Positions 7,195 through 24,757 of a DNA stretch of 28,493 nt are shown here, one piece after another. How positions within the stretch are numbered: position 1 is the first letter of the stretch; every line of letters begins with the position of its first letter. The position numbers and the translations under genes were made by a program. The notes under the pieces were generated by a model. That model saw only the letters and a list, made by a program, of their open reading frames with translations. It searched no databases and was not told the origin of the DNA. The DNA is taken from the IMG/VR virus record IMGVR_UViG_3300037264_002599, positions 1 to 28,493 of that record. One strand, 5' to 3'. Source of the DNA: a virus.

Positions 7195-8217
7195 TCACAT
7201 TCCCCCACGGAGCGTTGGACGAAAAAAGCTGTCGGTGAACGGCAACGGCATACGCATTTCATTTTGACAATGTGGGCAAGTCACAACAACATCCATATCA
7301 ATACCTGGTGCTTCATCATTCAAACACTTTCTAATAGCCGCAGTATCGACACCATGTAATTTCGATATAAACTGACTCAAAATATTTCTATCTTTAAGAC
7401 CATTAGCACTCACAACAACCAGATTTAAATTGGCTTCTATTGCATCATCAAGAACAACCGATTCAATAGGACTCGATGCCCCTGTCTTGGCATTTCTAAC
7501 TGGTGCTCCAATTGCCTTATCTCTGATTGCCTTCCGTTGATTAATAACCTGCATATCACGTCCACGCAAGAAACGAACATCAACCCACACCTCTCGTTTA
7601 GTAATTTCAGATGAATACGGCAGATTGATTCTGATCGGCTCGGTTGGATGTTTAGGAGCACGTATAGTGCCAGCAATCATGTTAAGATCATACTCATGGG
7701 TGCTTTGTTGTTTACAAGTATCACTTGTACATGTGATCATAAATTCATAATTATTACCATATGTAACACCACGAATGTAGAACAATAGGAACATTCTATC
7801 ACCATTTAAAAGATCAAGTGGATCAAATGGTGATGGGAATTTAATACAATTTTTATAAACATAATCAATCGATTGGTTAGTTTGTGCTAACCGTGCAGTT
7901 GCTAATATCTTTTCTGTGTAAATGGTCATCGGCCTAATCTGTACTTTGCCATCTGGGATTAATCCACCATAATAAATTCCCAAACTTGGTAACTGTATTT
8001 CCTCCCATGGTATTAATTCATCAGTTGATTTGTTAGCCAAGAATGAAATAATATCAGATGGACTAGTAGTTGGATTTAATTCATTACTAAAATCTGGTTT
8101 TGCGGTATGAACCATATGTTGTTGTTCTTTGGGTGACGATTCATCTTTAATTGGTATTGGTTTATTCGGCTGAACTGGTTGTTCGCCGCCTAATAAATTG
8201 ACTTCTTTTTCTGGCAT
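7195..8217 (-). CDS. Baseplate hub protein, gp26-like (T4_baseplate family)
   Basis: A 340-residue protein of the T4 baseplate hub family (Pfam T4_baseplate, gp26 type), needed to build the central hub or initiate the tail. Supporting features: an acidic, low-complexity N-terminus (1-60), the signature PWEEIQLPSLGIYYGG followed by KVQIRPMTIYTEKILATARLAQ, PFDPLDLLNGDRMFLLFYIRGVTYGN, and a C-terminus LPFTDSFFRP. Four cysteines in a split zinc-ribbon arrangement (CTSDTC and later CPHC) are present. The start has AGGAGA about 6 bases upstream. A run of five G just before the stop, with an overlapping open frame, suggests possible programmed frameshifting into the next gene. It heads a group with the tail-tube-like genes upstream. 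Confidence 0.8.
   Translation of the reverse strand: MPEKEVNLLGGEQPVQPNKPIPIKDESSPKEQQHMVHTAKPDFSNELNPTTSPSDIISFLANKSTDELIPWEEIQLPSLGIYYGGLIPDGKVQIRPMTIYTEKILATARLAQTNQSIDYVYKNCIKFPSPFDPLDLLNGDRMFLLFYIRGVTYGNNYEFMITCTSDTCKQQSTHEYDLNMIAGTIRAPKHPTEPIRINLPYSSEITKREVWVDVRFLRGRDMQVINQRKAIRDKAIGAPVRNAKTGASSPIESVVLDDAIEANLNLVVVSANGLKDRNILSQFISKLHGVDTAAIRKCLNDEAPGIDMDVVVTCPHCQNEMRMPLPFTDSFFRPTLRGGM
7202..7206 (-). other. Candidate frameshift site (G5 run) at end of gp26-like gene
   Basis: On the minus strand the gp26-like gene ends CGT GGG GGA ATG TGA. Slipping +1 (or -2) on the G run gives GAA TGT GAA GCA GAA TGG, which joins the frame of the small downstream protein. A tRNA-Gly in the P site can re-pair perfectly after a +1 slip. 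Phage tail chaperone pairs commonly use such slippage: -1 in lambda, and a reported -2 on a G-rich site in Mu. The alternative is separate initiation at 7175. Confidence 0.35.
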
Positions 8218-8257: not shown

Positions 8258-8750
8258 TAACTTCTGCGTAATCGTATGCTAAAGTAACCGTTATGATTTT
8301 GGCATCAGAACTAGCATAAGACAATGGACCCTGAGCAATTGAAACAGGCCAAGAACCTTTTGCTGTAATTGTTTTAAGTGTATTACCTAAACCATCTTGT
8401 AACAGGAAAATACTATCTTGTTTATAATTAGAATGAACCTTGATTCCACCCTGGTTAGTATAGATCTTATCGCGCCATGCAATCAATTCTTTCAACGTGT
8501 CCATAGTATCATAGAAAGTAACACTGATATTTTCCCATTTTACTGATTTTGCGAATTTATAATAAATTAATCCACCAAGTATCTCTTGAACATCAATCTT
8601 GCTTTCTGGCAGAACCATCTCTCTCGCGAGCAATCGAACTGTTCTATCTGCTATTGGCCCTAACTGCTGTATCTCCCAACGATACTGCATAAGAACATCG
8701 ATTGTCCCCGGAGGCCCATTCCCACCACCATCAATATTAAATCCAGGCAT
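8253..8750 (-). CDS. gp19-like tail tube paralog (third copy)
   Basis: A 165-residue protein of the T4 gp19 tail-tube family. It begins MPGFNIDGGG, like its two upstream paralogs, and ends with the beta-strands IITVTLAYDYAEV, matching their IQTIEVTMRYDRA. The segment KWENISVTFYDT corresponds to their EPIKLVWYD. It is the most diverged of the three and lacks the RRKHRWLFETL motif, having YRWEIQQL instead. It may form a terminal ring or a hub-adjacent tube segment rather than the main tube. Its ATG overlaps the preceding stop (TAATG), so it is translationally coupled to the second copy. Confidence 0.75.
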   Translation of the reverse strand: MPGFNIDGGGNGPPGTIDVLMQYRWEIQQLGPIADRTVRLLAREMVLPESKIDVQEILGGLIYYKFAKSVKWENISVTFYDTMDTLKELIAWRDKIYTNQGGIKVHSNYKQDSIFLLQDGLGNTLKTITAKGSWPVSIAQGPLSYASSDAKIITVTLAYDYAEVT

Positions 8751-9268
8751 TAGAATCTCGCTGCTCTGTCGTATCGCATCGTAACTTCAATTGTCTGTAT
8801 TTCTGAATCTGCATAATCAACAGCATTCCAATTCACTTCAGCAGGCCAACAATTAAATATTTCCCAATTTTCATTGATTGATCCATCACCATCCAACATA
8901 GTAAGACGGCCTTTTTTCTTATATGATTCTGGTGGTGGAACATTGAGTTCATTAAAGAAATTGATAACCTTATTAACCCATTGCCAGATAGCATCAGATG
9001 AATCAACACCATCAGCCACATCGTACCAAACTAATTTAATCGGTTCCCAATAATGCCGACCCGCCAAATAAATACGTTCTTGTTTGTGATGAATCTCTGG
9101 TTGCTCTATGGTCAAATGTGGTCTGGTAGCTTCTTTTAAATAGGTTAAAATTTTCTTATCATCAACACCATCAAGAGTCTCAAATAACCATCGATGTTTT
9201 CTACGCGTCTCAACGAGATGGTTCGGCTGTTCTTTACCACCAACGCCACCTATATTGAATCCAGGCAT
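8750..9268 (-). CDS. gp19-like tail tube paralog (second copy)
   Basis: A 172-residue tail-tube family protein starting MPGFNIGGVG and carrying VETRRKHRWLFETL, HHKQERIYLAGRHYWEPIKL and a C-terminal EIQTIEVTMRYDRAARF. It is very similar to the first copy at 9313. The family polymerises as hexameric rings into the inner tube through which DNA is ejected. A strong GGAGG Shine-Dalgarno lies 4 to 5 bases upstream, and TATAAATA sits 15 bases before the start codon, suggesting it has its own late promoter. Confidence 0.82.
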   Translation of the reverse strand: MPGFNIGGVGGKEQPNHLVETRRKHRWLFETLDGVDDKKILTYLKEATRPHLTIEQPEIHHKQERIYLAGRHYWEPIKLVWYDVADGVDSSDAIWQWVNKVINFFNELNVPPPESYKKKGRLTMLDGDGSINENWEIFNCWPAEVNWNAVDYADSEIQTIEVTMRYDRAARF

Positions 9269-9283
9269 ATAACCTCCAAGTTA

Positions 9284-9291
9284 TATTTATA
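9284..9291 (-). promoter_or_regulatory. T4-type late promoter candidate (TATAAATA)
   Basis: A perfect minus-strand TATAAATA in the 44-base gap between two tail-tube genes. In T4 the gp55-programmed polymerase needs only this octamer. Transcription would start near 9278, giving a leader of about 10 bases that still contains the GGAGG ribosome binding site. The window also encodes a gp55-like sigma factor. Confidence 0.45.
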
Positions 9292-9312
9292 TGAAATGGT
9301 AAATGTCAACTA

Positions 9313-9843
9313 TTAGGCAGCGCGATTGGCTCGATCAATACGCATATTAACTTCAATCGTCTGAATTTCAGTGTCGGCGTAATCGAGTGTGTTCCAGTTA
9401 ATGTCCTGTGGCCAGCAACCAAACAATTCCCATGTTTCACTTGCAGTGCCATCACCCATTAACATTTGTAGCTTGCCATTTTTCTTATACTGATTTGGCT
9501 TGTTAACAGGAATGGTACCACGATGTATACCAGCTACACCATTCAGCCAATCCCACATCTCCCTAGAAACATCGGGAGACTGCTCACCATCATACCATAC
9601 CAGCTTGATTGGCTCCCAGGAATGCTTACCAGCAAAGTAAGCCTTTTCTTGATTGTGGTGCATTTCTGGTTCTTCAAATGTCGGATGTGGCCTAGTTGCT
9701 TCTTTCAGAATAACAAGCACCTCTGGAGCGAACTCACCAGCAGCAGCCTTACCTAGTGTCTGGAACAACCAGCGGTGTTTACGCCTGGTTTCTACAGTAT
9801 GATTCGGTCCTTGTCCGACACCACCAATTATGAATCCAGGCAT
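9313..9843 (-). CDS. gp19-like tail tube protein (first copy)
   Basis: A 176-residue protein of the T4 gp19 tail-tube family, beginning MPGFIIGGVG with VETRRKHRWLFQTL, HHNQEKAYFAGKHSWEPIKL and the C-terminal strand EIQTIEVNMRIDRANRA. It shares most of these segments with the second copy. Which copy builds the main tube cannot be decided from sequence; being first in the group and having good AGGAGA spacing argues for this one. It follows the protease gene and is followed by two paralogs in the same direction. Confidence 0.82.
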   Translation of the reverse strand: MPGFIIGGVGQGPNHTVETRRKHRWLFQTLGKAAAGEFAPEVLVILKEATRPHPTFEEPEMHHNQEKAYFAGKHSWEPIKLVWYDGEQSPDVSREMWDWLNGVAGIHRGTIPVNKPNQYKKNGKLQMLMGDGTASETWELFGCWPQDINWNTLDYADTEIQTIEVNMRIDRANRAA

Positions 9844-9869
9844 AGGTATGTCTCCTAATTATGTCTTAA

Positions 9870-10721
9870 TTATTTTTGCTGTGGCCCTACAAAACTGTTT
9901 ATATGATTTATAGGAACAAAATAAGACACGTTATTTGATATGCCATAGAACGCACTTCCAGGCACACGAACAACGATACCAACTAACTCACCAGTTCTTG
10001 CTAGATACACTGGTCCACCGGAATTACCAGGGAAAACAGGAGCACTACAATGCCACAGGAATGGAGCATCTTCATTCCAATCATTCCATTTAGCGGTTAA
10101 AGTGCCATTGCTACAATTTGGAGCCGACGTACCACATGGAAAACCAACAATATATAATCTATCATTAACATCCATTGTATCAACAGTGGCTATTTTACTA
10201 ATGGCGTGTGGTAACTCAATTGGGACGAATAATAATAATAGATCAGATTTATCATCGATTCGTGCTACTGTCGCTGTTGTCCAAACATTGACCCGTAGTT
10301 CATGATGACGTACTTGCACTTCAACAAAATTCTCATGCTCTTTCTCTTCCTCTTCAGGCTCCTCAAATCGACCTCGTGGTGAATGCACAAGATGTGCTGC
10401 TGATAACACAAAATGTTTTGATATTACCACCCCCGAACCATACCCAGATTTGGTCCTGATTGCAACTGTCGAATCTTTTATATGAGTTGGTAATTCTTCA
10501 ACAACTCGTGGTCGAACTATCATGTTTACTTTGACTTTATAATCTACCTTTAAACTTAGTGCATAAACTGCTATTATACCAACTATTAAAATTAGGAAAT
10601 AGATTAAATATCTGCTGTTAAGTAACTTAAATTTTCCCCATGTTTCAATTAATTTAGTCCAAATCCAAATTGGTTTTTTAACTTCGATGATCGGCCTCTT
10701 AAGCCCAATTATTCGCCTCAT
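9870..10721 (-). CDS. Membrane-anchored trypsin-like serine protease
   Basis: A chymotrypsin/HtrA-fold serine protease. Numbering from an upstream ATG at 10727, the catalytic residues are His112 (VLSAAH), Asp162 (DDKSDLLLL) and Ser236 (FPGNSGGP). A hydrophobic segment at about 41-58 follows a basic N-terminus, so the enzyme is probably anchored in the inner membrane with the catalytic domain outside the cytoplasm. A loop with many Glu (121-131) lies near the active site, and two Cys (198, 205) could pair. No PDZ domain follows; the protein ends soon after the last strand, unlike DegP. I chose the ATG at 10721 because AGGAG lies six bases before it, whereas it abuts the ATG at 10727. It differs from the usual phage prohead proteases (gp21/S14/U9 types). 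Confidence 0.8.
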   Translation of the reverse strand: MRRIIGLKRPIIEVKKPIWIWTKLIETWGKFKLLNSRYLIYFLILIVGIIAVYALSLKVDYKVKVNMIVRPRVVEELPTHIKDSTVAIRTKSGYGSGVVISKHFVLSAAHLVHSPRGRFEEPEEEEKEHENFVEVQVRHHELRVNVWTTATVARIDDKSDLLLLFVPIELPHAISKIATVDTMDVNDRLYIVGFPCGTSAPNCSNGTLTAKWNDWNEDAPFLWHCSAPVFPGNSGGPVYLARTGELVGIVVRVPGSAFYGISNNVSYFVPINHINSFVGPQQK

Positions 10722-10735
10722 GTTCATCTCCTAGG

Positions 10736-10783
10736 GGATGACCACCGCCATCCGTTGATACTAAAGGATGGGGGTGGTCATCC
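10736..10783. promoter_or_regulatory. 18-bp inverted repeat upstream of protease
   Basis: Arms 10736-10753 and 10766-10783 (GGATGACCACCGCCATCC and its near-complement) pair at 17 of 18 positions around a 12-base loop. On the minus strand the hairpin sits between the acidic-protein gene and the protease, ending just before the protease AGGAG. No T-run follows, so it looks more like an attenuator, RNA-processing or translation-control hairpin than a simple terminator. Confidence 0.6.
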
Positions 10784-10798
10784 TACGACACCACCATG

Positions 10799-11183: not shown

Positions 11184-11675
11184 ATGCATTATTGCGAGGC
11201 TCCCAATCACCCAGATCAATTTCATCAACGACCTTGGCTATTTCTAGCTGGTGGAATCACTAATTGTAGAGACTGGCAATCTGAATTAATTGAATTATTG
11301 CTACCAAATAAAGGCACCATATTTAACCCAAGACGCAAAGAATGGCCAATTAACAATCCGAGCGCATCAGAAGAGCAAATAAAATGGGAATATAAATATC
11401 TATGGCAAGCAGACATAATATCATTCTGGTTCAGTAAAGAAACATTAAATCCAATCGTTTTATATGAGCTTGGCGCACACTTAGTTAGAATTAAATCAAA
11501 ACAAGCTGGACCACCAATAATCATAATTGGTATAGAAGACGGTTACCAACGCACACAAGATATAATTATACAAACCAGTCTAATTATTGGTAAAGACATT
11601 GCCAACTATATAAACCGCTCCATATCACGACAAGCGGAAATCCTACATAAAATCTTACAACATTCACGAGGTTAA
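11184..11675 (+). CDS. Nucleoside 2-deoxyribosyltransferase-like protein
   Basis: A 163-residue protein of the nucleoside 2-deoxyribosyltransferase-like fold (Pfam Nuc_deoxyri_tr2 type). These enzymes transfer or hydrolyse the deoxyribose of nucleosides or nucleotides, acting in base exchange and salvage. Visible: a P-loop-like first strand FLAGGIT (20-26), NPRRKEWP (48-55), ASEEQIKWEYKYLWQADIISFWFS (61-84), and LNPIVLYELG (88-97), where Glu95 is the likely nucleophile and Asp77 a substrate contact. It is first of a plus-strand pair; the next gene starts one base after its stop. AGGGA lies 7 bases before the ATG. The substrate is unknown. Confidence 0.75.
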   Translation: MHYCEAPNHPDQFHQRPWLFLAGGITNCRDWQSELIELLLPNKGTIFNPRRKEWPINNPSASEEQIKWEYKYLWQADIISFWFSKETLNPIVLYELGAHLVRIKSKQAGPPIIIIGIEDGYQRTQDIIIQTSLIIGKDIANYINRSISRQAEILHKILQHSRG

Positions 11676-11676
11676 T

Positions 11677-12468
11677 ATGAAACCAATAATAATCGCCGGT
11701 CCATGTGTAATTGAAGACAATTGCTTAACAATAGCCAAAGAAATAGCCAAAATTGCGAAATCAACCAGGATCAAGATCATATTTAAAGCTTCTTATGACA
11801 AAGCCAATCGATCATCAGGTAAATCGTATAGAGGACCTGGTTTAATTGATGGTATTAAAATCTTAAATGAAATTAAACACTCAACCAAATTAGAAATATT
11901 GACAGACATTCATGAACCAGAACACGCACGATTAGTATCACAAGTAGCTGACATCATCCAAATACCAGCATTCCTATGCCGACAAACTGATTTATTAGTA
12001 GCTGCCGCCAAAACTGGTAAAACAATCAATATTAAGAAAGCACAATTTCTATCACCTAACGACATGATTAATCCAATTAATAAAGTACATTCAACCAACC
12101 GCAATAACATAATGATTACAGAAAGAGGAACCTGCTTTGGATACAACAATTTAATCAGCGACATGCGAAGTATTCCAATAATGAAAAAATTCGGATACCC
12201 TATCATTTATGATGCAACCCACTCAGTACAAATACCAGGAGGACTTGGATATGCTTCAAGTGGTAATAGAGAATTTATTGAACCATTAGCTATGGCCGCG
12301 ATTGCCGCTGGTGCAGATGGTTTGTTCGTTGAGACACACCCTAATCCAGACAAAGCACTCTCTGATGGCGCAAATATGCTACATTTAGATAAATTAGAAG
12401 AATTCATTATAAGAATAATAAAGCTTAAATCAGTTGTTGACCAGATGCCTTCTCTCTATAAGCTTTAA
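11677..12468 (+). CDS. kdsA: 3-deoxy-D-manno-octulosonate 8-phosphate synthase
   Basis: Condenses phosphoenolpyruvate with arabinose 5-phosphate to KDO 8-phosphate, the first committed step to KDO, the sugar joining lipid A to the lipopolysaccharide core. The 263-residue protein covers the whole TIM-barrel family length (bacterial enzymes 265-285). Signatures: FKASYDKANRSS (36-47), YRGPGL (51-56), ITDIHEP-like LTDIHEP (75-81), IPAFLCRQTDL (96-106), and KKFGYPIIYDATHSVQ (170-185). IAGPC places a Cys at position 10; with His182, Glu219 and Asp230 this gives the complete metal site of the metal-dependent class (as in Aquifex), not the Asn type of E. coli. GAGG precedes the ATG. Its last 44 bases overlap the uracil-DNA glycosylase gene tail to tail. 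All key residues are intact. Confidence 0.93.
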   Translation: MKPIIIAGPCVIEDNCLTIAKEIAKIAKSTRIKIIFKASYDKANRSSGKSYRGPGLIDGIKILNEIKHSTKLEILTDIHEPEHARLVSQVADIIQIPAFLCRQTDLLVAAAKTGKTINIKKAQFLSPNDMINPINKVHSTNRNNIMITERGTCFGYNNLISDMRSIPIMKKFGYPIIYDATHSVQIPGGLGYASSGNREFIEPLAMAAIAAGADGLFVETHPNPDKALSDGANMLHLDKLEEFIIRIIKLKSVVDQMPSLYKL

Positions 12469-13417
12469 TCAACGCACATAAATCACTAATATTTTCATTA
12501 AATTTTTGTCGCTTTTCCGGATCATTCGTATTTCGTGGTGATGGATGATAAACAGGATATACATCAACACCAAACTTGTCTGACTTTAGAATCTTCCCAA
12601 GATGATCGGACATGGTTAACTGTGGAAAGAACACGTTAAATGCAACTGAACCAAGTGTAATAACTAGAATTGGCCTTAACAAATTAACTTCCATCATAAG
12701 GATCGGCTCACAACGAGACATATATTCAGCTGATGGGCGCTCATTACCCAAACTATGACATTTAACACAATTGGTCACATAGAAATCCGATCTAGATAAA
12801 CCATTACGACCAATACAATCATCGAAAAACTTACCAGCCTCACCAACAAATGGCTTCCCCTGTAAACATTCATTAAACCCAGGGTTCTGACCCACAACCA
12901 TCCAACGAGCAGGATTCATCGTACTAAACACATGTGGATCGAACACTGTATTAAACTCATTACACAACTGCCTCCCAAGCGAACACATACTACAAGACCG
13001 CACCACATTACTCATCTGATACAACATCCGCATCACACGCTCTTGCCATTGCTCCTTCTTACCAGCATCATTTAAAGTAACTGGTATGGTTGGCGTAGTA
13101 AGCTCTGGTTGTCCACATAACTTACTCGGATCCCAATGAAAATTATTCAAACGCTCCATATCAGGATCAGTACGAATCCAACGATTAAGCTCCCACTTAA
13201 AAATTACATCATCAGACCCATCTTCATTGAATCTTATAATAACTGACTTAATATCAGATGGCACATTATCTAACATCTCTTTAAGAATTTCAGTAGGACC
13301 ATTAACCATACCAAAACCAGCATCGCCATTTGGTATACCAATACCGAACATTCGTTTACGTAAAATTTTACGTTGTGGACGAAGTCGCTCAGGTATGTAT
13401 TCAACTGGTTGCGACAT
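12425..13417 (-). CDS. Family 4-type uracil-DNA glycosylase with Fe-S cluster
   Basis: A uracil-DNA glycosylase superfamily enzyme that excises uracil from DNA. The catalytic domain occupies about residues 135-325: motif A VVGQNPGFNE (174-183) and KPFVGEAGKFFDD (188-200), FYVTNCVKCHS (212-222), and the C-terminal motif VYHPSPRN (289-296). Four cysteines suit a [4Fe-4S] cluster: C142-x2-C145, C220 and C236, the last pair 16 apart as in thermophilic family 4 enzymes. The first 130 residues are an additional domain I do not recognise (FNEDGSDDVIFKWELNRWIR). The HPSPRN motif is closer to family 1 HPSP than to the common family 4 HPA pattern. The gene is monocistronic on the minus strand, flanked by two plus-strand genes. 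Confidence 0.82.
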   Translation of the reverse strand: MSQPVEYIPERLRPQRKILRKRMFGIGIPNGDAGFGMVNGPTEILKEMLDNVPSDIKSVIIRFNEDGSDDVIFKWELNRWIRTDPDMERLNNFHWDPSKLCGQPELTTPTIPVTLNDAGKKEQWQERVMRMLYQMSNVVRSCSMCSLGRQLCNEFNTVFDPHVFSTMNPARWMVVGQNPGFNECLQGKPFVGEAGKFFDDCIGRNGLSRSDFYVTNCVKCHSLGNERPSAEYMSRCEPILMMEVNLLRPILVITLGSVAFNVFFPQLTMSDHLGKILKSDKFGVDVYPVYHPSPRNTNDPEKRQKFNENISDLCALIKAYREKASGQQLI

Positions 13418-13441: not shown

Positions 13442-13891
13442 ATGGGTCCATGGGCTATATCAATCCTCAGTAGCGTACCATCGGCACATCATTCCGCATT
13501 TAATAAAGCATATAATTGGCCACAGCGAATTTTCTATAATAAAGAATCAGATTGTATACGAGCAGTCGTAAACGGGGATAAAGCTGTAGCCACCGCTGAT
13601 AGTCAAGTACGATTTAATATAGTCGGCAATATACCATCAGGATTTGACATAATCGCTGGCATACCTAGTAATTTATCAGAAATATTCTATAATAAAGCAA
13701 ATGAAGATATTGCCAGATTATTAGAATGGGTAATAACAAATTTAGATCCTAAAGACGCCGAATTCCACTACATGTCTGGTATCATATTTGGGATCCCATT
13801 TCAAAATATTAGAGATTTCATTGATCAAAGCAATTATTATAATAAATCAGAAGCATTACAAGAACTCGACTCATTAATCAACACGCCCTAA
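13442..13891 (+). CDS. Unknown protein
   Basis: A 149-residue plus-strand protein without a recognised family. It has no signal peptide or transmembrane segment that I can defend. Segments include YNWPQRIFYNKESDCIRAVVNGDKAVATAD, a FNIVGNIPSGFDIIAGIP stretch, and a C-terminal helical part. The Shine-Dalgarno is weak (AAAGATAGC before the ATG at 13442). It starts 24 bases from the divergent glycosylase start and its last 18 bases overlap the phosphatase gene tail to tail. Confidence 0.6.
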   Translation: MGPWAISILSSVPSAHHSAFNKAYNWPQRIFYNKESDCIRAVVNGDKAVATADSQVRFNIVGNIPSGFDIIAGIPSNLSEIFYNKANEDIARLLEWVITNLDPKDAEFHYMSGIIFGIPFQNIRDFIDQSNYYNKSEALQELDSLINTP

Positions 13892-14395
13892 TTTAACGGC
13901 AAATCTTCTAATCAAATGCTCCTGAGTAAGAATAACAAGACCAAACCCCTTAGCCTCAACAATAGCATCATCAACATTCCAATTCTCAACGGCAATCCTA
14001 TAACAGGCAACCATTACCCCAGTACGACCTCTACCAGCCTCACAATGCACAAAAACCGGCTGATTAGAAACATCCTTGACTAATCGTATAAATTCTCTTA
14101 CTTGCTTAATAGTTGGCGCAGTATTATCAATAATACGAATCCTAGCATACTTAAAACCAAATTGCTTACACTCCTCAGCATCATCAGCAATCTTATTAGG
14201 TTCGGCACATAAATTAACAATTAACCTAACACCATCTCGCTTCAAAGCTCTATACTTATCAAGACTATCAAGCCTAGAACCACGCCACAGTATTGGCGAT
14301 ACACGAAACGCATAATGTTTAACTGGATACTTCAGTCCAACCAATTCCAATAAACCAATAATTGGGCCAATAATGCTTTTAAGCAATCGCATCAT
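13874..14395 (-). CDS. Dual-specificity/tyrosine phosphatase-like protein
   Basis: A 173-residue protein with the cysteine-phosphatase signature VFVHCEAGRGRTGVMVACYR: Cys118 nucleophile, Arg124, and the following Thr. Upstream GVRLIVNLCAEP and IRIIDNTAPT give the usual strand pair with Asp90 as candidate general acid. The fold is that of compact dual-specificity or PTEN-like phosphatases. Residues 5-20 are hydrophobic (LKSIIGPIIGLLELVG) and could form a membrane-associating helix. Targets cannot be told from sequence: phosphoproteins, phosphoinositides, RNA 5' ends or sugar phosphates are all possible. No clear Shine-Dalgarno precedes the start; a second ATG follows immediately. It lies 34 bases downstream of a tRNA-like gene. 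Confidence 0.82.
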   Translation of the reverse strand: MMRLLKSIIGPIIGLLELVGLKYPVKHYAFRVSPILWRGSRLDSLDKYRALKRDGVRLIVNLCAEPNKIADDAEECKQFGFKYARIRIIDNTAPTIKQVREFIRLVKDVSNQPVFVHCEAGRGRTGVMVACYRIAVENWNVDDAIVEAKGFGLVILTQEHLIRRFAVKLGRVD

Positions 14396-14429: not shown

Positions 14430-14504
14430 TGGAGCGCTAGGGCCTGCATCGAGCAGCCCTCTCCCACCTGGAAAGTGAGCACATCGAGCCTATGCTTCTA
14501 GCGC
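14430..14504 (-). tRNA. tRNA-Gly(UCC)-like gene with encoded CCA
   Basis: The minus strand folds as a cloverleaf: 7-bp acceptor GCGCTAG/CTAGCGC, discriminator T and encoded CCA (14432-14430); short D arm GCAT/ATGT with GG in the loop; anticodon stem CTCAC/GTGGG with loop TTTCCAG, anticodon UCC; T loop CTCGATG. U73 agrees with bacterial Gly identity. Unusual points: A instead of U at position 8, a C where T54 is normal, and one extra base in the T stem (GGCTG/CAGGCC), so it could be degenerate. Its first bases overlap the stop codon (TAG, 14500-14498) of the homing endonuclease gene. Confidence 0.55.
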
Positions 14505-16066
14505 ACAAGATCATATACATATCTAAACTTCTTCCCACCCCAAACCTTTGAATAACCAAACTTATTACAATATTCAGTCTCCATCATAGACATCTGCTTA
14601 GCCTTATTCCACAAAGTTTTCTTGTGACAGATATAACCTCTATTATCAGCATACCAATAATCAGGCGAAACTTCACCATCAAGTCGCCAATTACTGGCCT
14701 TATAAATTGTCCCAAGATGATTATAGGTAGAATCAGCAAATGAAACTAAACACTTTACTTCTAATCTACTTTGTTTGACATAACCAATTGATTTGGCAAT
14801 TAAATAACTAGCAAAATTCTTAACCTGGTATTTAGGGTGAATGCAAAATCGAGATAATTCAAGAACCCCACTAAACTTATAACCCTGCTTTAACGCTACT
14901 TCCTGTCTCACCGGTATTGAGTATATGCAAACTGCTATAAGAACATCACCAAGATAGAAACCGAGATTAATACCAGATCTACCGATCCTGCCAGCATAAT
15001 GATATTTAGAAACAAATAACTCAGCTTCCTTAGCTTCAACAATTGACATCTTAATAAAATTAAAATCGAAATTTATAACTTCGATCTTCGATAATCCTAA
15101 CCAATATTTCAATGTCTCTATAATACGATCTTTAAAATTAAATTCATGCTCCCATAAATACTTTAAATCAAATTCTGAATAATAAGTTTTAAGATAAGTT
15201 GATTTCGATTTATCCTTACTGACTGTTTTAGGCAGAGAATGCCAATAATCACCCTGGACCTCAATTAACAACGGTCTAATTAGATCAACACTTGGTTGTA
15301 AATCAATGCGACAATCAATTTGATAAAATCCGATTGTAATTTCTTTCTTATATTCGATATTAAGATCATCTAAAATAGAATATAAGATATTCTGTTGCGT
15401 ACTTGGCCCCTTTAACATCTTTTGCAAATTCAATAATCTAATCTTAGACATCTTCTCTCTATATTCAGGATCTGACCAAACCTCATTCATTCTTTCTCTA
15501 AACTTCTCACTATGACGTAATTCATCCATTTTTCGACGATAAACATCAGTAGCTCTATATTTCTCGATCTTAGCACGATAATTAGGATCATCCCATTGTT
15601 TCTTACACCTATCAGAGAATGGTCTCTTAATCTTCTCTCTAAAACCTGGCTCAGACCACATAGCCTTAGAACAACTTGATATAGCATCTCTATTAATCGT
15701 TGCAAGCCATCGATTCTTATAAACAGGATCAGACATTAATATTTTATTCCTATCACTAACTAACTTACGCATCTTATCTGATTTAAGATGATTCAAGACT
15801 TTATTAGCTGATTCACTATCCCACAATTTCTTGGCATTCCTAGAACAAATCACTTTATTAATTGAACATTTATGACACGAGTACACACCACCATTTTTCC
15901 TAATCGTCTGAAGATGTGAACATAGTTTGATTATCTTGACGTTATTACACTTAGGACATTTAATAGGGACATCCATTTTAGTTGATGGAACAACATCCAA
16001 CTTATTATATTGAACATATTGTGAAAATAACCGATCATCTGATGAAACATCTATCATATAATTCAT
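14498..16066 (-). CDS. Vsr-like homing endonuclease fused to Mom-like acyltransferase domain
   Basis: A 522-residue multidomain protein. Residues 35-70 carry a zinc-finger-like C37-x2-C40...C64-x2-C67. Residues about 80-210 hold five repeats of a DNA-binding type resembling NUMOD3/IENR motifs (W-S-D-P-E-Y-R-E-K-M and variants near 112, 138, 159, 173, 197). Residues about 222-320 look like the Vsr/EDxHD nuclease fold: QIDCRIDL, LLIEVQGDYWH (267-276) and YLWEHEF (303-309). Residues about 340-520 resemble the GNAT-fold Mom family that modifies adenine in phage Mu: LELSRFCIHP, LVSFADSTYNHLGTIYKASNW and the end KKFRYVY. It starts just downstream of the sheath terminator. Two starts are possible (16066, or the ATG at 16057, better spaced from AGGA). 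Domain calls are from pattern recognition; the nuclease part is surer than the Mom part. Confidence 0.75.
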   Translation of the reverse strand: MNYMIDVSSDDRLFSQYVQYNKLDVVPSTKMDVPIKCPKCNNVKIIKLCSHLQTIRKNGGVYSCHKCSINKVICSRNAKKLWDSESANKVLNHLKSDKMRKLVSDRNKILMSDPVYKNRWLATINRDAISSCSKAMWSEPGFREKIKRPFSDRCKKQWDDPNYRAKIEKYRATDVYRRKMDELRHSEKFRERMNEVWSDPEYREKMSKIRLLNLQKMLKGPSTQQNILYSILDDLNIEYKKEITIGFYQIDCRIDLQPSVDLIRPLLIEVQGDYWHSLPKTVSKDKSKSTYLKTYYSEFDLKYLWEHEFNFKDRIIETLKYWLGLSKIEVINFDFNFIKMSIVEAKEAELFVSKYHYAGRIGRSGINLGFYLGDVLIAVCIYSIPVRQEVALKQGYKFSGVLELSRFCIHPKYQVKNFASYLIAKSIGYVKQSRLEVKCLVSFADSTYNHLGTIYKASNWRLDGEVSPDYWYADNRGYICHKKTLWNKAKQMSMMETEYCNKFGYSKVWGGKKFRYVYDLVR

Positions 16067-16129: not shown

Positions 16130-18994
16130 TTACTGAGTAGCGAGAACCACGCCACCGGCCTGAAGAACAGCCTCAGAACTAAAGCTAGCCTCTGTTCTAA
16201 GGACTACTAGATTTAGTTGAATGAATTCTGCTGCGCGCGTGGGCTTCAGGAAGTACGCAACGTGCAACTCATTGCGATCAATCCGTTCTGGCGTGTTATT
16301 TCTATCGTCGCAAACAACCGAAAAACCAGTCAATCCACGACGTGCCTGAATATCGGCAAGGAATGAGCTGCTAACATTCGCAACACGTGCTCGCGTGATC
16401 TTATCGTTAGGCTCAAACACGAACTGACGTAGGAAATTAATCGCATTCTTCTTAATGAAGATCAAGAGCATGCGGACATTAACGCGATCCAAAGCCGTAG
16501 CACGACGTTGTAGCGTCCTCTGACCCCATACCGTGATCCCGTCTTGCGGGAAATTCACAATCGCATTAACCGCATTTCCAGAACCATACATCAAATCGCG
16601 CTCACCCATACTCAGATCAACTTCTGTATCGAGTGGGGTCAGTAAGCGACCTCTATTCACACCAGCAGGAGCAAACCAAGTCTCAGCTACACGCTCAGTC
16701 CTAGCATAAACACCTGAAACATGGCCACTTGGTGGTGTAAAGATCGTACCACCATTAAATTGATCAAACAACTTCAACCATGGATGGTACAACGCACCAT
16801 AGCTTGAGTTAATTGCCTGAGCCAAATCACTGAAGAGGATACCGTTGTGCCAATCAACAACCTGTTGAGCACGTAGGCCAAATGGTGGATCAATGATGAA
16901 GAGACAATCACCACGCGTCTCACACATTCTCAAGCCCTGGCCAATTACCGCACCAGAACTAAATCCTGGGATGATGAGCAATGAAATGTCGAACACTTCT
17001 GGATTCTGGAATGCAAAGATGCCAGTCTCCAAATTCGGATTACCAATCACTGATCTATCAAGCTCAGAAGAGAATGACGGATCAGCCGGTATGCCATTTG
17101 CCGAACCAGTGAAGTCCTTACGGCTGAACGAACCAGGTACCCTAACCTCGAAATTGTCAGGATCATTCACTGGATCATTATTCAAGAAAGCAGGACGCGG
17201 TATCCACTGAACAAAACTATTACCATTCGGACCACCAAACTGGGAACCTTCATTGATCACGTTCCCAATATAGCGCTCATCGCGTGGATCGAAAGTCACA
17301 TCTTCAAATGCATCGACAGTCTGATTATTCTTGTCTTCAATGGTGACCTTAAAACGACCAGCAACATCACCAGCACCTTCACCTGCGCCGAATATATCCA
17401 GTGTAACCTTAAAATCATCAACCCAGGTACCGGCACTCTTCGCAACTAGCCATCCAACGATATTAGCAAAATATCCTGAATCAGCTGCACATTCATCACT
17501 GAATGCATCAACCTCGCAAGAGAGTGGGGTATTTGGCGTAACTGTACCAGCATCAGGCAGCAATACTCGTGAATCGCTGAATACCTGATATGCCCTCGTG
17601 TATGGGAATTGAATGCCAAGTTCTTCTGCGAAACGCAGAGTCTTGAAATGTGATCCATCGGCTTGCATTTTGAGCTGGTCGAATTGGTGATCAACCACTG
17701 TCTCAATGAAGACATGTGTTTCACCACCAGGAATTAACATTGCGAAGGAGCGCCAATAACGTTCACCTGTCTTAATACCACCAAGATGTATCGCATTGGC
17801 GATAGCAGCACCTGATTGATTCAAACCAACAGTGATACTGAATTCAATCTCGACGGTGCTGGCTTGACCAACTACTTCAATATTGACACGATTGTTCTCC
17901 GTAGTAATATCATATGGCTCTGTATTGGTCGAATGAAGGTGACTACGTGGGATGTCATAAGCATATAGAGTTTGTCCAACTTCTAAGGAAAATGCCTCTC
18001 TCGATATAAGTTGAATGTTCCTACCAGCAACATCAGTCGTAAAGCATACCGTATCGTCGTCCTGAGAAATCGCTCTGTATGGCTCTACACTCGAAATCAG
18101 TGTATTAATATCATCAGCGAAATCATCAGAATCGGTATAGGTAGAACCATCTGGGATCGTGTACTCAACCACTGATCCAGGATCTTGTCTATCAACATTG
18201 AAGGAGAACGTTCTATTGTCTGGTCGAACGGTGAATGTGAATGTATCGTTGGCTGCAATTGGGACTGACCCAGTTACAACAATAGCAAATACTAGTCCAT
18301 CGCCGATATCGATCAGTTCTGATGTGCCAGGAGTACCACTTTCCACTATTATATCGGCCAGTACCGTAGTGCCATCTGAATTACGAATGACCTCGAATGT
18401 TGCGCCATCCATTACGGAACCACCAGTAGCAGGTACATCGCTGGTGATCAATACTGTGAATGAATCATCAATTGCACCAGTGTAGCTGGTCAAACTGACA
18501 AAGCTCAGTGTGGCACTTACTGGTCCTGGGGTCGGGTCTACATCAATATCGTTATAATCAATATCAAACACAAGTGCCGAATGGAAAACAAGTGGAGCAT
18601 CGACACTAACTATTCTTGTGCAGATCTTACCGAAGTCAATTCCGGAGAATATCGCTATTCGTCCCCATCCTTTACCACGAGCACCTGAATTGTCGATACA
18701 AATGTCTGCTAATCCATCTGGTTGTCCTTCTTCGCATTCTACGCCGACCCGTAGAATCCATGCTCTTCCGCCATCTTCAAAGTAGGCTAGGACTGCATAG
18801 CCAAGGAAGCTCTCTGGGAATGGCTCGCCGAAGATGTCAATAAATTGTTGTGAGTTACCAACGAAGGTCGGGTCCTGGAGAGGACCTTTTTTGGCAGTTC
18901 CAATGAACGCGGGTGTTAGTGCGCCCGTGTTGGTTGGAATTGCGCTTAGATCAATCTCTCTAGGAAATACTCCTGGCGAAAGAAAGACTGCCAT
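16130..18994 (-). CDS. Contractile tail sheath protein (gp18-like)
   Basis: A 954-residue sheath subunit that polymerises around the tail tube and contracts to drive injection. The N-terminus FLSPGVFPREIDLSAIP and TPAFIGTAKKGPL...FGEPFPESFLGYAVLAYFEDGG are classic for the family, as is the C-terminal domain with ITVWGQRTL, NVRMLLIFIKKNAINFLRQFVFEPND and the final RNELHVAYFLKPTRAAEFIQLNLVV. It is about 300 residues longer than T4 gp18 (659). Extra beta-rich, Thr/Ser/Asp-rich stretches (roughly 140-330 and 500-560) look like surface insertions on the outside of the sheath. A strong GAGGAG sits 8 bases upstream and a terminator follows. The gene seems more GC-rich than its neighbours, fitting very high expression. 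Confidence 0.93.
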   Translation of the reverse strand: MAVFLSPGVFPREIDLSAIPTNTGALTPAFIGTAKKGPLQDPTFVGNSQQFIDIFGEPFPESFLGYAVLAYFEDGGRAWILRVGVECEEGQPDGLADICIDNSGARGKGWGRIAIFSGIDFGKICTRIVSVDAPLVFHSALVFDIDYNDIDVDPTPGPVSATLSFVSLTSYTGAIDDSFTVLITSDVPATGGSVMDGATFEVIRNSDGTTVLADIIVESGTPGTSELIDIGDGLVFAIVVTGSVPIAANDTFTFTVRPDNRTFSFNVDRQDPGSVVEYTIPDGSTYTDSDDFADDINTLISSVEPYRAISQDDDTVCFTTDVAGRNIQLISREAFSLEVGQTLYAYDIPRSHLHSTNTEPYDITTENNRVNIEVVGQASTVEIEFSITVGLNQSGAAIANAIHLGGIKTGERYWRSFAMLIPGGETHVFIETVVDHQFDQLKMQADGSHFKTLRFAEELGIQFPYTRAYQVFSDSRVLLPDAGTVTPNTPLSCEVDAFSDECAADSGYFANIVGWLVAKSAGTWVDDFKVTLDIFGAGEGAGDVAGRFKVTIEDKNNQTVDAFEDVTFDPRDERYIGNVINEGSQFGGPNGNSFVQWIPRPAFLNNDPVNDPDNFEVRVPGSFSRKDFTGSANGIPADPSFSSELDRSVIGNPNLETGIFAFQNPEVFDISLLIIPGFSSGAVIGQGLRMCETRGDCLFIIDPPFGLRAQQVVDWHNGILFSDLAQAINSSYGALYHPWLKLFDQFNGGTIFTPPSGHVSGVYARTERVAETWFAPAGVNRGRLLTPLDTEVDLSMGERDLMYGSGNAVNAIVNFPQDGITVWGQRTLQRRATALDRVNVRMLLIFIKKNAINFLRQFVFEPNDKITRARVANVSSSFLADIQARRGLTGFSVVCDDRNNTPERIDRNELHVAYFLKPTRAAEFIQLNLVVLRTEASFSSEAVLQAGGVVLATQ

Positions 18995-21720: not shown

Positions 21721-22338
21721 TCACCAAAGAATCGGACCCAACGGTTCACTAAGTAACAGGGCATCCTGAACTGCTTTATCTTTCTCAGCTTGCCCCTCGG
21801 TCCTTAGAGCATCGCCATTCAGGTTCAAAGAACCACCACCAGGCGCAGGTATATTACCAAATTTACTCCTAGAATTACCCAACATAATCTTAGCCTCCGC
21901 GACTAGCGCTCGCTTCAAAATCTCTCTAGCATGCGGTGAGCGAAATCGTTGAACCGTTGGAATATACTCGATAACAACTGGGAAACTACCGCGTGGTGTT
22001 GGAAATAACCTTATTTTGTTGTCTCCCTTAACCTCCCATTGTCCTTCAGTTGCGAGAATGCGTTGACTGAATTTCCTATAAGCTTGTAATAAATGGTAAT
22101 CAGTCAAGATATTCTGAATACCAGTTACGTTACCAACATTCGCTGCAAGACCAATCTTAAATAAAAAACGATCAAATGTGGTATCATATTGGATATTTTG
22201 TTTGCCACCAAGCTCGGTATATAGGTCCATAAATTCACGGTTATGTTCACTAGTGCCGAGAACTAGATGAGTAGTTTCATGAATAAGATCGTTAAAACTA
22301 GACGCGAAAATCAATCCACAATTGTGATCAGTTAACAT
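21721..22338 (-). CDS. gp13-like neck protein, C-terminal half, preceded by a mini C-intein
   Basis: A 205-residue protein whose first residues M-L-T-D-H-N then Cys look like the end of an intein (His-Asn) and the +1 nucleophile. It then continues as the C-terminal part of a T4 gp13-type head-completion protein: VTGIQNILTDYHLLQAYRKFSQRI, KIRLFPTPRGSFPVVIEYIP, and AEAKIMLGNSRSKFGNIPAPGGGSLNLNGDALRTEG ending LGPILW. Its own GAGGA Shine-Dalgarno seven bases before the ATG shows it starts here; the frame upstream is closed by a TGA a few codons earlier. The start overlaps the last bases of the endonuclease gene. Joined to residues 1-107 of the gene at 24025 it makes a full-length neck protein of about 306 residues. 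A HETTH...H motif occurs near residue 20. Confidence 0.8.
   Translation of the reverse strand: MLTDHNCGLIFASSFNDLIHETTHLVLGTSEHNREFMDLYTELGGKQNIQYDTTFDRFLFKIGLAANVGNVTGIQNILTDYHLLQAYRKFSQRILATEGQWEVKGDNKIRLFPTPRGSFPVVIEYIPTVQRFRSPHAREILKRALVAEAKIMLGNSRSKFGNIPAPGGGSLNLNGDALRTEGQAEKDKAVQDALLLSEPLGPILW
22321..22338 (-). other. Candidate six-residue C-intein (MLTDHN) before Cys+1
   Basis: Codons ATG TTA ACT GAT CAC AAT followed by TGT. The pair His-Asn then Cys is the C-terminal splice motif of inteins (block G). It aligns with the end of the N-terminal half (P-V-L-V-H, then stop), whose Asn is missing. Confidence 0.6.
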
Positions 22339-23287
22339 ACAATTTCCTCAAAACCAACTTATACAAAGTTGGCGCAAGACACTTGCTATAAAGATATTTG
22401 AATCCATCAATTGTATAATTCTTTAATTCATCATAGCTCTTAAAATAATAAGTGACTTGTTTTATGTCAGTTCGAGGTCTTGCTCTTATAAATTCATATC
22501 GCTCCTTTGCGTATCCATTCAATAACAGTTCCCATCCTTTAATCCTTTCCACATCTGAAATTAATCTAAATTTTTTACCTCGTTTTTCGGCCTCGCGTTC
22601 AGCATATAATCTCTTATCAGTTGGCATAACCACATATGACGGTTTCACTTCTACCCACTCATCTTTTAACGTAAAATCAATAGTGTATGTTCTTTGCTTC
22701 CCACTTATATGATCAACATATTTGATTCTTTCTGATTCATATGTCCAATTAACACCAGCTTGATCAAGATATAGTGTATATGTTAATTCCATAATTGATT
22801 TCAGATAAATTATTGGTCCATTCAACATCTGAAATTTAACTTTGTTGACTGAACGTGAATATTTATTTGTATGTTGACTTGGATGAACATAACCATGTTT
22901 TTCCAAATAACGTGATTGCCATGCACCAACCAATTGGTCATTTGATTTTATTAACCCAAATTGCTGAACATACTTCCTAACCGTAGAATAATGCACACCA
23001 ATCTTTTCGGCAATTGATTTGGTATCAAAATTCTTATTAATGTATTCATCGACAAGATATTTCTTGGTCAAGACATCTGATTTGGCGCAAACTTTCTTTC
23101 TATGCTTAATCTTGGCTATGTCTGAATGATTATAACGTGACGTATTAATACCAGCAGAACGTAGTTTCCTTTTTATTGTTACTTGACTGCATCGATAATA
23201 TTCGGCAAGATCAGATAGCGTCTTACCATTATTAAATCGGTCAACCAACTCATCTTTTGGTATATCAATTACATTCCATATTATCAT
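22328..23287 (-). CDS. Free-standing homing endonuclease, PD-(D/E)XK-like
   Basis: A 319-residue protein located exactly between the two halves of the neck gene. Residues about 10-50 and 75-115 are two helix-turn-helix units (TLSDLAEYYRCSQVTIKRKLR and SIAEKIGVHYSTVRKYVQ), suitable for DNA targeting. The central part has a PD-(D/E)XK-type nuclease pattern: Glu167 (SIMELTY), Asp204 (YTIDFTL) and Glu213-Val-Lys215 (WVEVKPS), followed by a helical region. It would cut intein-free alleles and promote its own spread. It is in a different frame from both flanking halves; its stop overlaps the start of the downstream half and its start lies 24 bases after the upstream stop. The ribosome binding site is weak. 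Group I introns are not visible around it, so it belongs to the split-intein element. Confidence 0.8.
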   Translation of the reverse strand: MIIWNVIDIPKDELVDRFNNGKTLSDLAEYYRCSQVTIKRKLRSAGINTSRYNHSDIAKIKHRKKVCAKSDVLTKKYLVDEYINKNFDTKSIAEKIGVHYSTVRKYVQQFGLIKSNDQLVGAWQSRYLEKHGYVHPSQHTNKYSRSVNKVKFQMLNGPIIYLKSIMELTYTLYLDQAGVNWTYESERIKYVDHISGKQRTYTIDFTLKDEWVEVKPSYVVMPTDKRLYAEREAEKRGKKFRLISDVERIKGWELLLNGYAKERYEFIRARPRTDIKQVTYYFKSYDELKNYTIDGFKYLYSKCLAPTLYKLVLRKLYVN

Positions 23288-23311
23288 AATCTATATTTGA
23301 CAGCAATTAAA

Positions 23312-24025
23312 TTAATGTACTAAAACTGGTTCGCCATCATATGCCACATACAAACATTGTGCCTGTCTCATAGCAACAGCATAACTATCAATCATACCAC
23401 CATCCTTAACTGAGATTATCTGAGATTTGTGGTCAATCCCAACCAAAACATCGTTCAATTCTAATTCATCATTATTTAACCATCGATTCTTATTCAAGCA
23501 GAATATCGGATGATTAACAGTCGCAACTAATGTCCCATATTCATGAACAAGCTGCCTTGCTTGTTGTAAATGCTTTGAATTCCTCTTGTAAATTATTGCT
23601 TTCCTATTTCCGTATGGAGTCTTTGCTTTCCAATGTGGTTTCCATTCTGAAATTTCTTGAAGTCGATTATCCTTGTCAAGGATTTTTGTGGCTTTTGGAA
23701 AACAGAAGAGGAAGCTCTCAGCTCCAAAGATATCACCAATCCTCGTAGTTGCTGGATCCCATTTGACATCCTTTATCCAATAAGCGTCTGGTGGTAGATC
23801 ATATTCTGTTACTAGTGGTTGTGTGTAGAAGTACGCGTATTTCTCTTCTAGTGGGAAGTATTGAGCAATAAAATCACCAGTTACCCGGATTGCTTGTTCT
23901 AATTGTGGTTCTGTTAATTCGACCATTACGACTGGATGTCCAAGTTGAGATAGGACCTCGAACTTGATTGGATCTGATGGCAATTTCAAAACCACCGGTA
24001 ACTGTTCAGGTCCAATTATGGCCAT
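23312..24025 (-). CDS. gp13-like neck protein, N-terminal half, fused to Hint/intein domain
   Basis: A 237-residue protein. Residues 1-107 are the N-terminal part of a gp13-type neck protein: LSQLGHPVVMVELTEPQLEQAIRVTGDF, VTEYDLPPDAYWIKDV, and the end IGDIFGAESFLF. Residues 108-237 form a complete intein-like domain: Cys108 with FPKATKIL (block A), GTLVATVNHPIFC at about 164-176 with the Thr-x-x-His of block B, NDELELNDVLVG, and a last strand CLYVAYDGEPVLVH (blocks F/G) that stops at the penultimate His. The C-terminal Asn and the rest of the neck protein lie in the gene at 22338. I chose the ATG at 24025 because GGAGA is seven bases upstream; a longer frame begins at 24079 without a ribosome binding site. 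Confidence is for the intein and neck assignment together. Confidence 0.82.
   Translation of the reverse strand: MAIIGPEQLPVVLKLPSDPIKFEVLSQLGHPVVMVELTEPQLEQAIRVTGDFIAQYFPLEEKYAYFYTQPLVTEYDLPPDAYWIKDVKWDPATTRIGDIFGAESFLFCFPKATKILDKDNRLQEISEWKPHWKAKTPYGNRKAIIYKRNSKHLQQARQLVHEYGTLVATVNHPIFCLNKNRWLNNDELELNDVLVGIDHKSQIISVKDGGMIDSYAVAMRQAQCLYVAYDGEPVLVH
23315..23704 (-). other. N-intein / Hint domain (130 residues)
   Basis: Codons for residues 108-237 of the N-terminal half. Block A begins C-F-P-K-A-T-K-I-L; block B carries A-T-V-N-H-P; the end is G-E-P-V-L-V-H then TAA. No endonuclease domain is inside; the endonuclease is a separate gene just downstream. Confidence 0.75.
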
Positions 24026-24064
24026 AAAATTCTCCATTAATATTTTTGAGATAGATACAAGTAA

Positions 24065-24757
24065 ATGGACCCACAGCACTTGTACAACGCATCCTTTAGA
24101 TTCAATGCTAAGTATACTGATGTATTATACCCACGTATTGCATTAGCAGTTTTTGAAATGGTATTAACTGGTAAATGGGCCGAAGGTAATCCAGAGCAAG
24201 CTATTGATATGATTTTACATGATTGGTTGAATAATTTAAAGAATCGTAATGATTATATAGAAAGACTACGATCGACATTACAAGAAGATAGACATATTAT
24301 GGAGTGCACAATTTTACGACTTAATTATGCTGCTTTATTAGTTGAAGATTTCGATATGATCACGATTCATACTGGTAGACAGAGAGCGTTACCATTTACT
24401 AGTCTTGCTGAGCATGTTCAGACTGAATATGGTCTTGCTTATGCTGGTAAGAATGCTAGCGAAATGACCCTTGATGAAATCGAGGATCAAGCAAATAACT
24501 TTTATAAGTATAAAAAAGTTATTAAACAACGTAAGATCGGGGTGCCAGATGAAAAGCGTGCATATATTAAGAATAAAATTCTTGAATTAGGTTTCGTCTT
24601 CATTGAAGACTTAAATTTAGTATATTCAAGACTCAATCAATATCTACATGGTAATTATGAAACATCAATTATAGCTCGCCTTGCTTATTTGGCAGTAATG
24701 AATGGTGATGATCTTAGATCGGGAAATGTACCCCGCCTACCCCATATATATGATTAG
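24065..24757 (+). CDS. Unknown protein on plus strand
   Basis: A 230-residue, mostly helical protein. Segments: YPRIALAVFEMVLTGKWAEGNPEQAIDMILHDWLNNL near the N-terminus, a charged middle LDEIEDQANNFYKYKKVIKQRK, and a C-terminal LARLAYLAVMNGDD-like part. No family recognised. It is a lone plus-strand gene beside the fractured neck gene, divergent from it by 39 bases, and overlaps the minus-strand gene at 24714 by 44 bases tail to tail. Its ribosome binding site is weak (ACAAGTAA). A control function is conceivable from the orientation, but not shown. Confidence 0.6.
   Translation: MDPQHLYNASFRFNAKYTDVLYPRIALAVFEMVLTGKWAEGNPEQAIDMILHDWLNNLKNRNDYIERLRSTLQEDRHIMECTILRLNYAALLVEDFDMITIHTGRQRALPFTSLAEHVQTEYGLAYAGKNASEMTLDEIEDQANNFYKYKKVIKQRKIGVPDEKRAYIKNKILELGFVFIEDLNLVYSRLNQYLHGNYETSIIARLAYLAVMNGDDLRSGNVPRLPHIYD

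Follow-up and report, generated by a model that had tools for sequence, protein, structure and literature searches.

A predicted Cys-type KDO-8-phosphate synthase gene as recent cargo in a myovirus lineage

Why would a phage carry a gene for the synthesis of KDO, a sugar of bacterial outer membranes, among the genes for its virion? The question arises from an IMG/VR virus record, a phage fragment of 28,493 bases classed as a virus and analysed here over its whole length (the window). The majority of its genes lie on the minus strand, and the plus-strand open reading frame at 11677–12468 had been read in an earlier note as a complete KDO-8-phosphate synthase gene, kdsA, in a phage structural region. 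The setting proved to be as described—kdsA is flanked on both sides by phage genes (T4-type baseplate protein, sheath and baseplate J). The features that bear on the question are as follows.

7195–8217, minus strand: T4-type baseplate protein
11184..11675, plus strand: nucleoside 2-deoxyribosyltransferase-like gene (PF15891, 2.5e-16)
11668..11671, plus strand: GAGG, likely kdsA ribosome-binding site (by eye, without a tool score)
11677..12468, plus strand: kdsA, 3-deoxy-8-phosphooctulonate (KDO-8-P) synthase, 263 aa, ATG start, Cys-type site (family scores, alignments, predicted structure)
12425..13417, minus strand: uracil-DNA-glycosylase (UDG)-superfamily gene (PF03167), convergent to kdsA
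16130–18994, minus strand: tail sheath, 954 aa
27045–28487, minus strand: baseplate J-like protein

The deoxyribosyltransferase-like gene and kdsA stand in tandem on the plus strand, with the stop of the former 1 nt ahead of the kdsA ATG and the GAGG within its final codons, 5 nt from that ATG; given this spacing and this motif, the two genes are probably translated together. At the other end, the 3′ ends of kdsA and the UDG gene overlap by 44 nt. A promoter and terminator scan gave no signal above shuffled background, and Rfam returned no RNA family in the window.

The open reading frame exceeded the cut-offs of two NCBIfam KdsA models (NF003543, 7.7e-116 and 385.9 bits, cut-off 242; TIGR01362, 2.9e-113 and 377.3 bits, cut-off 314) and scored 272 bits with a third, NF009109, under its cut-off of 457. 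At these scores, chance is excluded as the source of the KdsA family match. We also considered the two families with which clustering, by the earlier note, would refute the KdsA reading, and rejected both: DAHP synthase-type models reached just 83–140 bits against cut-offs of 268–700, and no sialic-acid synthase model matched at E ≤ 0.01. PHROGs held no real family for the protein (top match E 0.005). The closest PDB relative by sequence was the Aquifex aeolicus KDO-8-P synthase (KDO8PS; 2.5e-84). An AlphaFold2 model built from 28 aligned sequences (pLDDT 92.3, pTM 0.91) was compared with known structures using Foldseek, and all 50 PDB chains listed were KDO8P synthases (best TM 0.93, rmsd 1.5); the KDO8PS TIM-barrel fold is thus confidently predicted for the window protein. 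The full-length frame of 263 residues, the family scores and the predicted fold all bear out the reading as a complete KDO-8-phosphate synthase.

The four metal ligands that had been proposed, Cys10, His182, Glu219 and Asp230, were recovered as the aligned metal-ligand columns (C10, H182, E219 and D230), which are invariant in alignments of 8 rows (A1) and 28 rows (A2). In the accessible text of PMC3052366, the ligands of metallo KDO8PS are Cys, His, Glu and Asp, and the non-metallo class has Asn in place of Cys. Across a 153-row alignment, the key position holds Cys in 73/73 viral rows (window included) and 79/80 other rows, counts that are no census of the metallo and non-metallo classes, since the bacterial rows were picked for nearness to the query (the 80 nearest, 79 with a complete ORF). 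Only one row departs from this, L008 (Acinetobacter), in which the position holds Asn. By its residues, window KdsA falls in the metallo (Cys) class, and from the Cys at the key position we infer metal dependence. All 16 labelled ligand and substrate-site columns, under catalytic labels drawn from A. aeolicus work, carry an invariant or common KDO8PS residue, the K-A-N-R-S-S stretch included.

How the gene came to lie at this site was addressed through relatives of the phage. A sheath-protein scan yielded 80 loci, and TIGR01362 was searched in 75 of those records (25 + 50). The closest sheath relative, with a sheath 93% identical, is the 129-kb record G005 (locus L009), in which a deoxyribosyltransferase-like gene 82% identical to that of the window meets the convergent UDG gene directly, without kdsA. 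The terminal bases of kdsA at its stop codon fall in a stretch common to G005, ctataagctttaat, so that kdsA at its 3′ end reads through the opposite strand of the UDG gene terminus. On the downstream side, the insertion is bounded by the 3′ end of the UDG gene (12425..13417). At three other loci (L013, L014 and L021), the UDG gene adjoins the same kind of baseplate gene, with neither kdsA nor the deoxyribosyltransferase-like gene, so that kdsA is absent from all four comparable sites (L009, L013, L014 and L021). The model matched in 2 of the 75 other sheath-group records (G013 and G019), in both of which kdsA lies far from the sheath genes; many of these records are fragments, making whole-record absence weak evidence and the four comparable sites stronger. 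Taken as sequence comparisons, these data indicate that kdsA is a recent cargo gain in a myovirus lineage, and the simplest order would have the deoxyribosyltransferase-like gene arriving first and kdsA after it. The base composition of kdsA (GC 0.356, GC3 0.27) is in line with that of neighbouring genes. The idea that deoxyribosyltransferase and kdsA form a functional unit finds no support, given that the sister phage G005/L009 has only the deoxyribosyltransferase-like gene; when the window copy of that gene was made into a profile, it had no match in the other kdsA loci examined. A pattern scan of viral contigs returned no relatives of the UDG gene, but tblastn on the collected loci did find some.

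Other parts of the window hold genes of separate interest. A minus-strand gene at 14498–16066 encodes a protein of 522 aa that ends in a Mom-family domain (PF25680, 100 bits, cut-off 27) and has an N-terminal half without a family; tblastn matched it in 22 loci beyond the window, several adjoining the sheath gene of relatives, and it is absent from the corresponding place in L009. The minus-strand gene at 13874–14395 encodes a dual-specificity/PTP-like phosphatase matched best in Pfam by a family of phosphatases that takes its name from polymorphic toxin systems, and L009 has no copy beside its sheath. A third minus-strand gene (21721–24079), intact in L009 (246 aa), is split into an N piece (23312–24079) and a C piece (21721–22338) with a TnsA/HTH-like endonuclease ORF (22328–23287) between them; the same order of N piece, endonuclease and C piece recurs in L018, L072 and L081. 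By eye, the extra residues trailing the N piece resemble an intein N half, and the C-side junction looks non-canonical.

The relatives of KdsA itself were gathered from several scans. A first viral scan gave four loci with 49–54% identity to window KdsA, an alignment-based viral scan gave at least 534 stretches, of which the best 80 were retained, and a genome scan gave 80 bacterial kdsA loci. Window KdsA is 48–57% identical to the 27 other rows of A2, and the top identity among the 152 other tree rows, 57% over 256 columns, is to a bacterial (Gastranaerophilales) KdsA. For the careful tree, 79 of 153 rows were kept, with G019 and the Synechococcus phage S-SCSM2R dropped as long branches and the remainder thinned. 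In this tree, the window paired with the viral locus L125 (support 99/83), and the pair was joined by G013 and by LR756500, a huge phage (96/89); support for where this clade sits deeper in the tree was poor (14/75), with a bootstrap that had not settled. An unthinned quick tree of all 153 rows again placed the window with G013 and L125 (SH-aLRT 83, unstarred), and placed LR756500 beside G019, in a grouping flagged for its long branches. The L125 record has no detectable sheath homologue, and the KdsA clade therefore spans phage groups. KdsA has likely passed from phage to phage.

Several of the collected loci deserve mention in their own right. In L125 (IMG/VR 3300002052_000634, 8522–10786), kdsA directly follows genes for a BT1/MFS-type transporter and a PQ-loop protein. 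L110–L119 encode viral KdsA with a fused C-terminal extension of ~200 residues, adjoining cupin-like and GT29-like genes; the extension of L110, the only one tested, had no NCBIfam match. Two sets of candidates were discarded as phage kdsA. L008 (CAKLQF020000008.1), labelled Acinetobacter phage MD-2021a, carries pyrG–kdsA–eno together with catabolic genes and looks like bacterial chromosome; the Listeria, Staphylococcus and Enterococcus records and one 'Bacteriophage sp.' record gave no evidence of a phage kdsA, the match being just 27–29% identical.

The earlier note had advised a search for KdsB, KdsC and KdsD elsewhere in the genome, and none of these occurs in the 28,493-base window. KdsC was found in 0/26 records searched. 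Partners do occur in some relatives: G013 encodes a KdsD-like SIS-CBS protein ~11 kb from kdsA (202.7–202.9 bits against a cut-off of 203.7), with no KdsB or KdsC in its 98-kb record; in LR756500, the ~2 kb after kdsA hold kdsB, which passes the TIGR00466 cut-off, and a gene for a KdsD-like SIS protein, which falls short of its own; kdsB adjoins kdsA in S-SCSM2R; L002–L004 have kdsB-like, cupin and GT29-like genes beside it; and in one group of viral contigs, it adjoins a QueD-like gene and a neighbour without assignment. Of 87 kdsA loci treated as viral (the chromosomal-looking L008 included), 12 had kdsB-like, 2 KdsD-like, 1 KdsC-like, 20 GT29-like and 22 cupin genes; the figures for the 79 bacterial loci were 31, 35, 29, 0 and 0, respectively. 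In kdsA-bearing viral records of ≥20 kb, a KdsB-type CTP_transf_3 domain was present in 3/44 and a KpsF-type (KdsD-type) protein in 2/44, the two being partial matches that fell short of the cut-off. Viral kdsA thus commonly stands alone, a pattern that suits the feeding of a host pathway better than a complete phage pathway and counts against more ambitious readings.

On balance, we regard the gene as probably encoding a catalytically competent Cys-type KDO-8-P synthase that serves as auxiliary metabolic cargo and feeds the host KDO pathway; the activity, metal use, expression, flux and benefit supposed here are predictions. As is typical of auxiliary metabolic genes, it is a metabolic gene amid phage genes with variable presence among close relatives. 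The phage enzyme would condense phosphoenolpyruvate (PEP) and arabinose-5-phosphate (A5P) to KDO-8-P, with A5P, PEP, KdsC, KdsB and transferases provided by the host. In a Gram-negative host under infection, phage KdsA would enlarge the KDO-8-P pool, from which host KdsC together with host KdsB (replaced in certain other phages by a phage KdsB) would make CMP-KDO, to be used in LPS or a different surface glycan. The benefit may be an envelope kept under construction through a long infection, or an altered surface. KdsA is not generally held to be rate-limiting, so more KDO through KdsA alone would not obviously be useful. Among named phages, the sheath is matched best by Microcystis phage Mel-JY01 and Bacillus phage SP-15, with just 33–40% of the protein covered, too distant for a host assignment. 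The boost to LPS core synthesis envisaged in the earlier note is a plausible conjecture, indirectly favoured by relatives with KdsD-like or KdsB genes and glycosyltransferases.

Other outcomes for the product have to be weighed against the supply of a host pathway. Phage-made KDO might serve to alter the LPS core or the capsule, so that superinfection is blocked or adsorption is changed, as the custom glycan programme suggested by the kdsB-like, GT29-like, cupin and other glycosyltransferase-like genes around kdsA in other phages would have it, and the accessible text of PMC5332604 cites an earlier proposal in which the LPS genes of phages alter the make-up of the cell surface; we consider this unlikely for the window, in which kdsA is unlinked to such a cluster and the annotated ORFs include no recognised glycosyltransferase. 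Less likely again is the incorporation of KDO, or of a sugar like it, into the phage itself, as a glycan of the virion or as a modification of DNA bases. The Mom-family domain gene (14498–16066) and the deoxyribosyltransferase-like gene of the same region speak for such a fate, as do the KdsD-like genes in G013 and LR756500, but no window gene is known to attach KDO to DNA or protein, and the sister phage G005/L009 has the deoxyribosyltransferase-like gene without kdsA. With nothing tying kdsA to DNA modification, the hypermodified base that the earlier note had raised finds no support; we know of no KDO-modified DNA. Comparably improbable, in our estimate, is a bolder proposal built on the tree, in which a phage-specific KdsA lineage (window, L125, G013 and LR756500) would spread between large phages that are not related to one another and serve as a dedicated module for KDO supply, accompanied in some by a phage KdsD-like isomerase and KdsB; its product would enter a KDO glycan defined by the phage, on the virion or the infected cell, rather than ordinary host LPS.

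The gene itself could also be misread. A KdsA-like enzyme of changed specificity, acting on another sugar phosphate to give a different 3-deoxy-ulosonate phosphate, might be supposed from an identity of just 48–57% to the A2 rows; each labelled substrate-site column has a residue that is invariant or common in KDO8PS, and two KdsA models score over their cut-offs with DAHPS-type models under theirs, which leaves this very improbable. That a bacterial kdsA was fused to a phage contig during assembly is a reading to which we give next to no credence. The contig is metagenomic and kdsA is single-copy cargo, but the flanks match the sister phage to both edges, the stretch at the kdsA stop codon is common to both, GC and GC3 fit the neighbours, and the 152 other KdsA rows include no near source (top identity 57% over 256 columns).

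If the enzyme is active, the locus would be an added case, placed through an empty-site comparison, of a phage gaining a KDO-committing enzyme, and the KdsD-like isomerase of G013 suggests that the route from ribulose-5-phosphate to KDO-8-P can be phage-encoded. Whether a phage requires additional KDO flux to maintain or alter the outer membrane in infection thereby becomes open to testing.

One of the closest known counterparts is A. aeolicus KDO8P synthase (PDB 1fwn and related), a Cys-type metallo enzyme that matches the window protein at 2.5e-84 over residues 3–255, with ~52% identity in structural alignment, the same metal ligands and the same predicted fold; it is a bacterial housekeeping enzyme, whereas the window gene is phage cargo with a predicted activity. 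Viral kdsA is already in print: PMC5332604 describes a complete environmental viral genome with KdsA, and PMC10653327 and PMC11018836 include kdsA in lists of viral auxiliary metabolic genes. In the accessible text of these three papers, marine viral kdsA, like that of the window, lies on viral contigs and is read as LPS or glycan metabolism, and the phage group, insertion site and phage KdsA clade of the window do not appear. The parts of the open-licence literature on viral kdsA that we consulted contain no characterised phage KdsA enzyme. A mention of kdsA in PMC12837969 was set aside, as it stands in a table of many virulence-type gene names, unlike a phage gene list. Among individual phages, S-SCSM2R (PQ898602) has a named host and an annotated KdsA; unlike the window, it has KdsB alongside and glycosyltransferase genes within ~10 kb, and its KdsA is just 40% identical to window KdsA (A1) and forms a divergent long branch. 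The KdsA of LR756500 shares the window clade in the thinned tree (48% identity, A1), but its gene belongs to a large cluster of sugar genes that also encodes KdsB and a KdsD-like SIS protein, whereas window kdsA stands alone. The gene class is thus known in viral genomes; what is new is the recent gain indicated at this site, the phage KdsA grouping and the relatives in which kdsA keeps KdsD-like or KdsB company.
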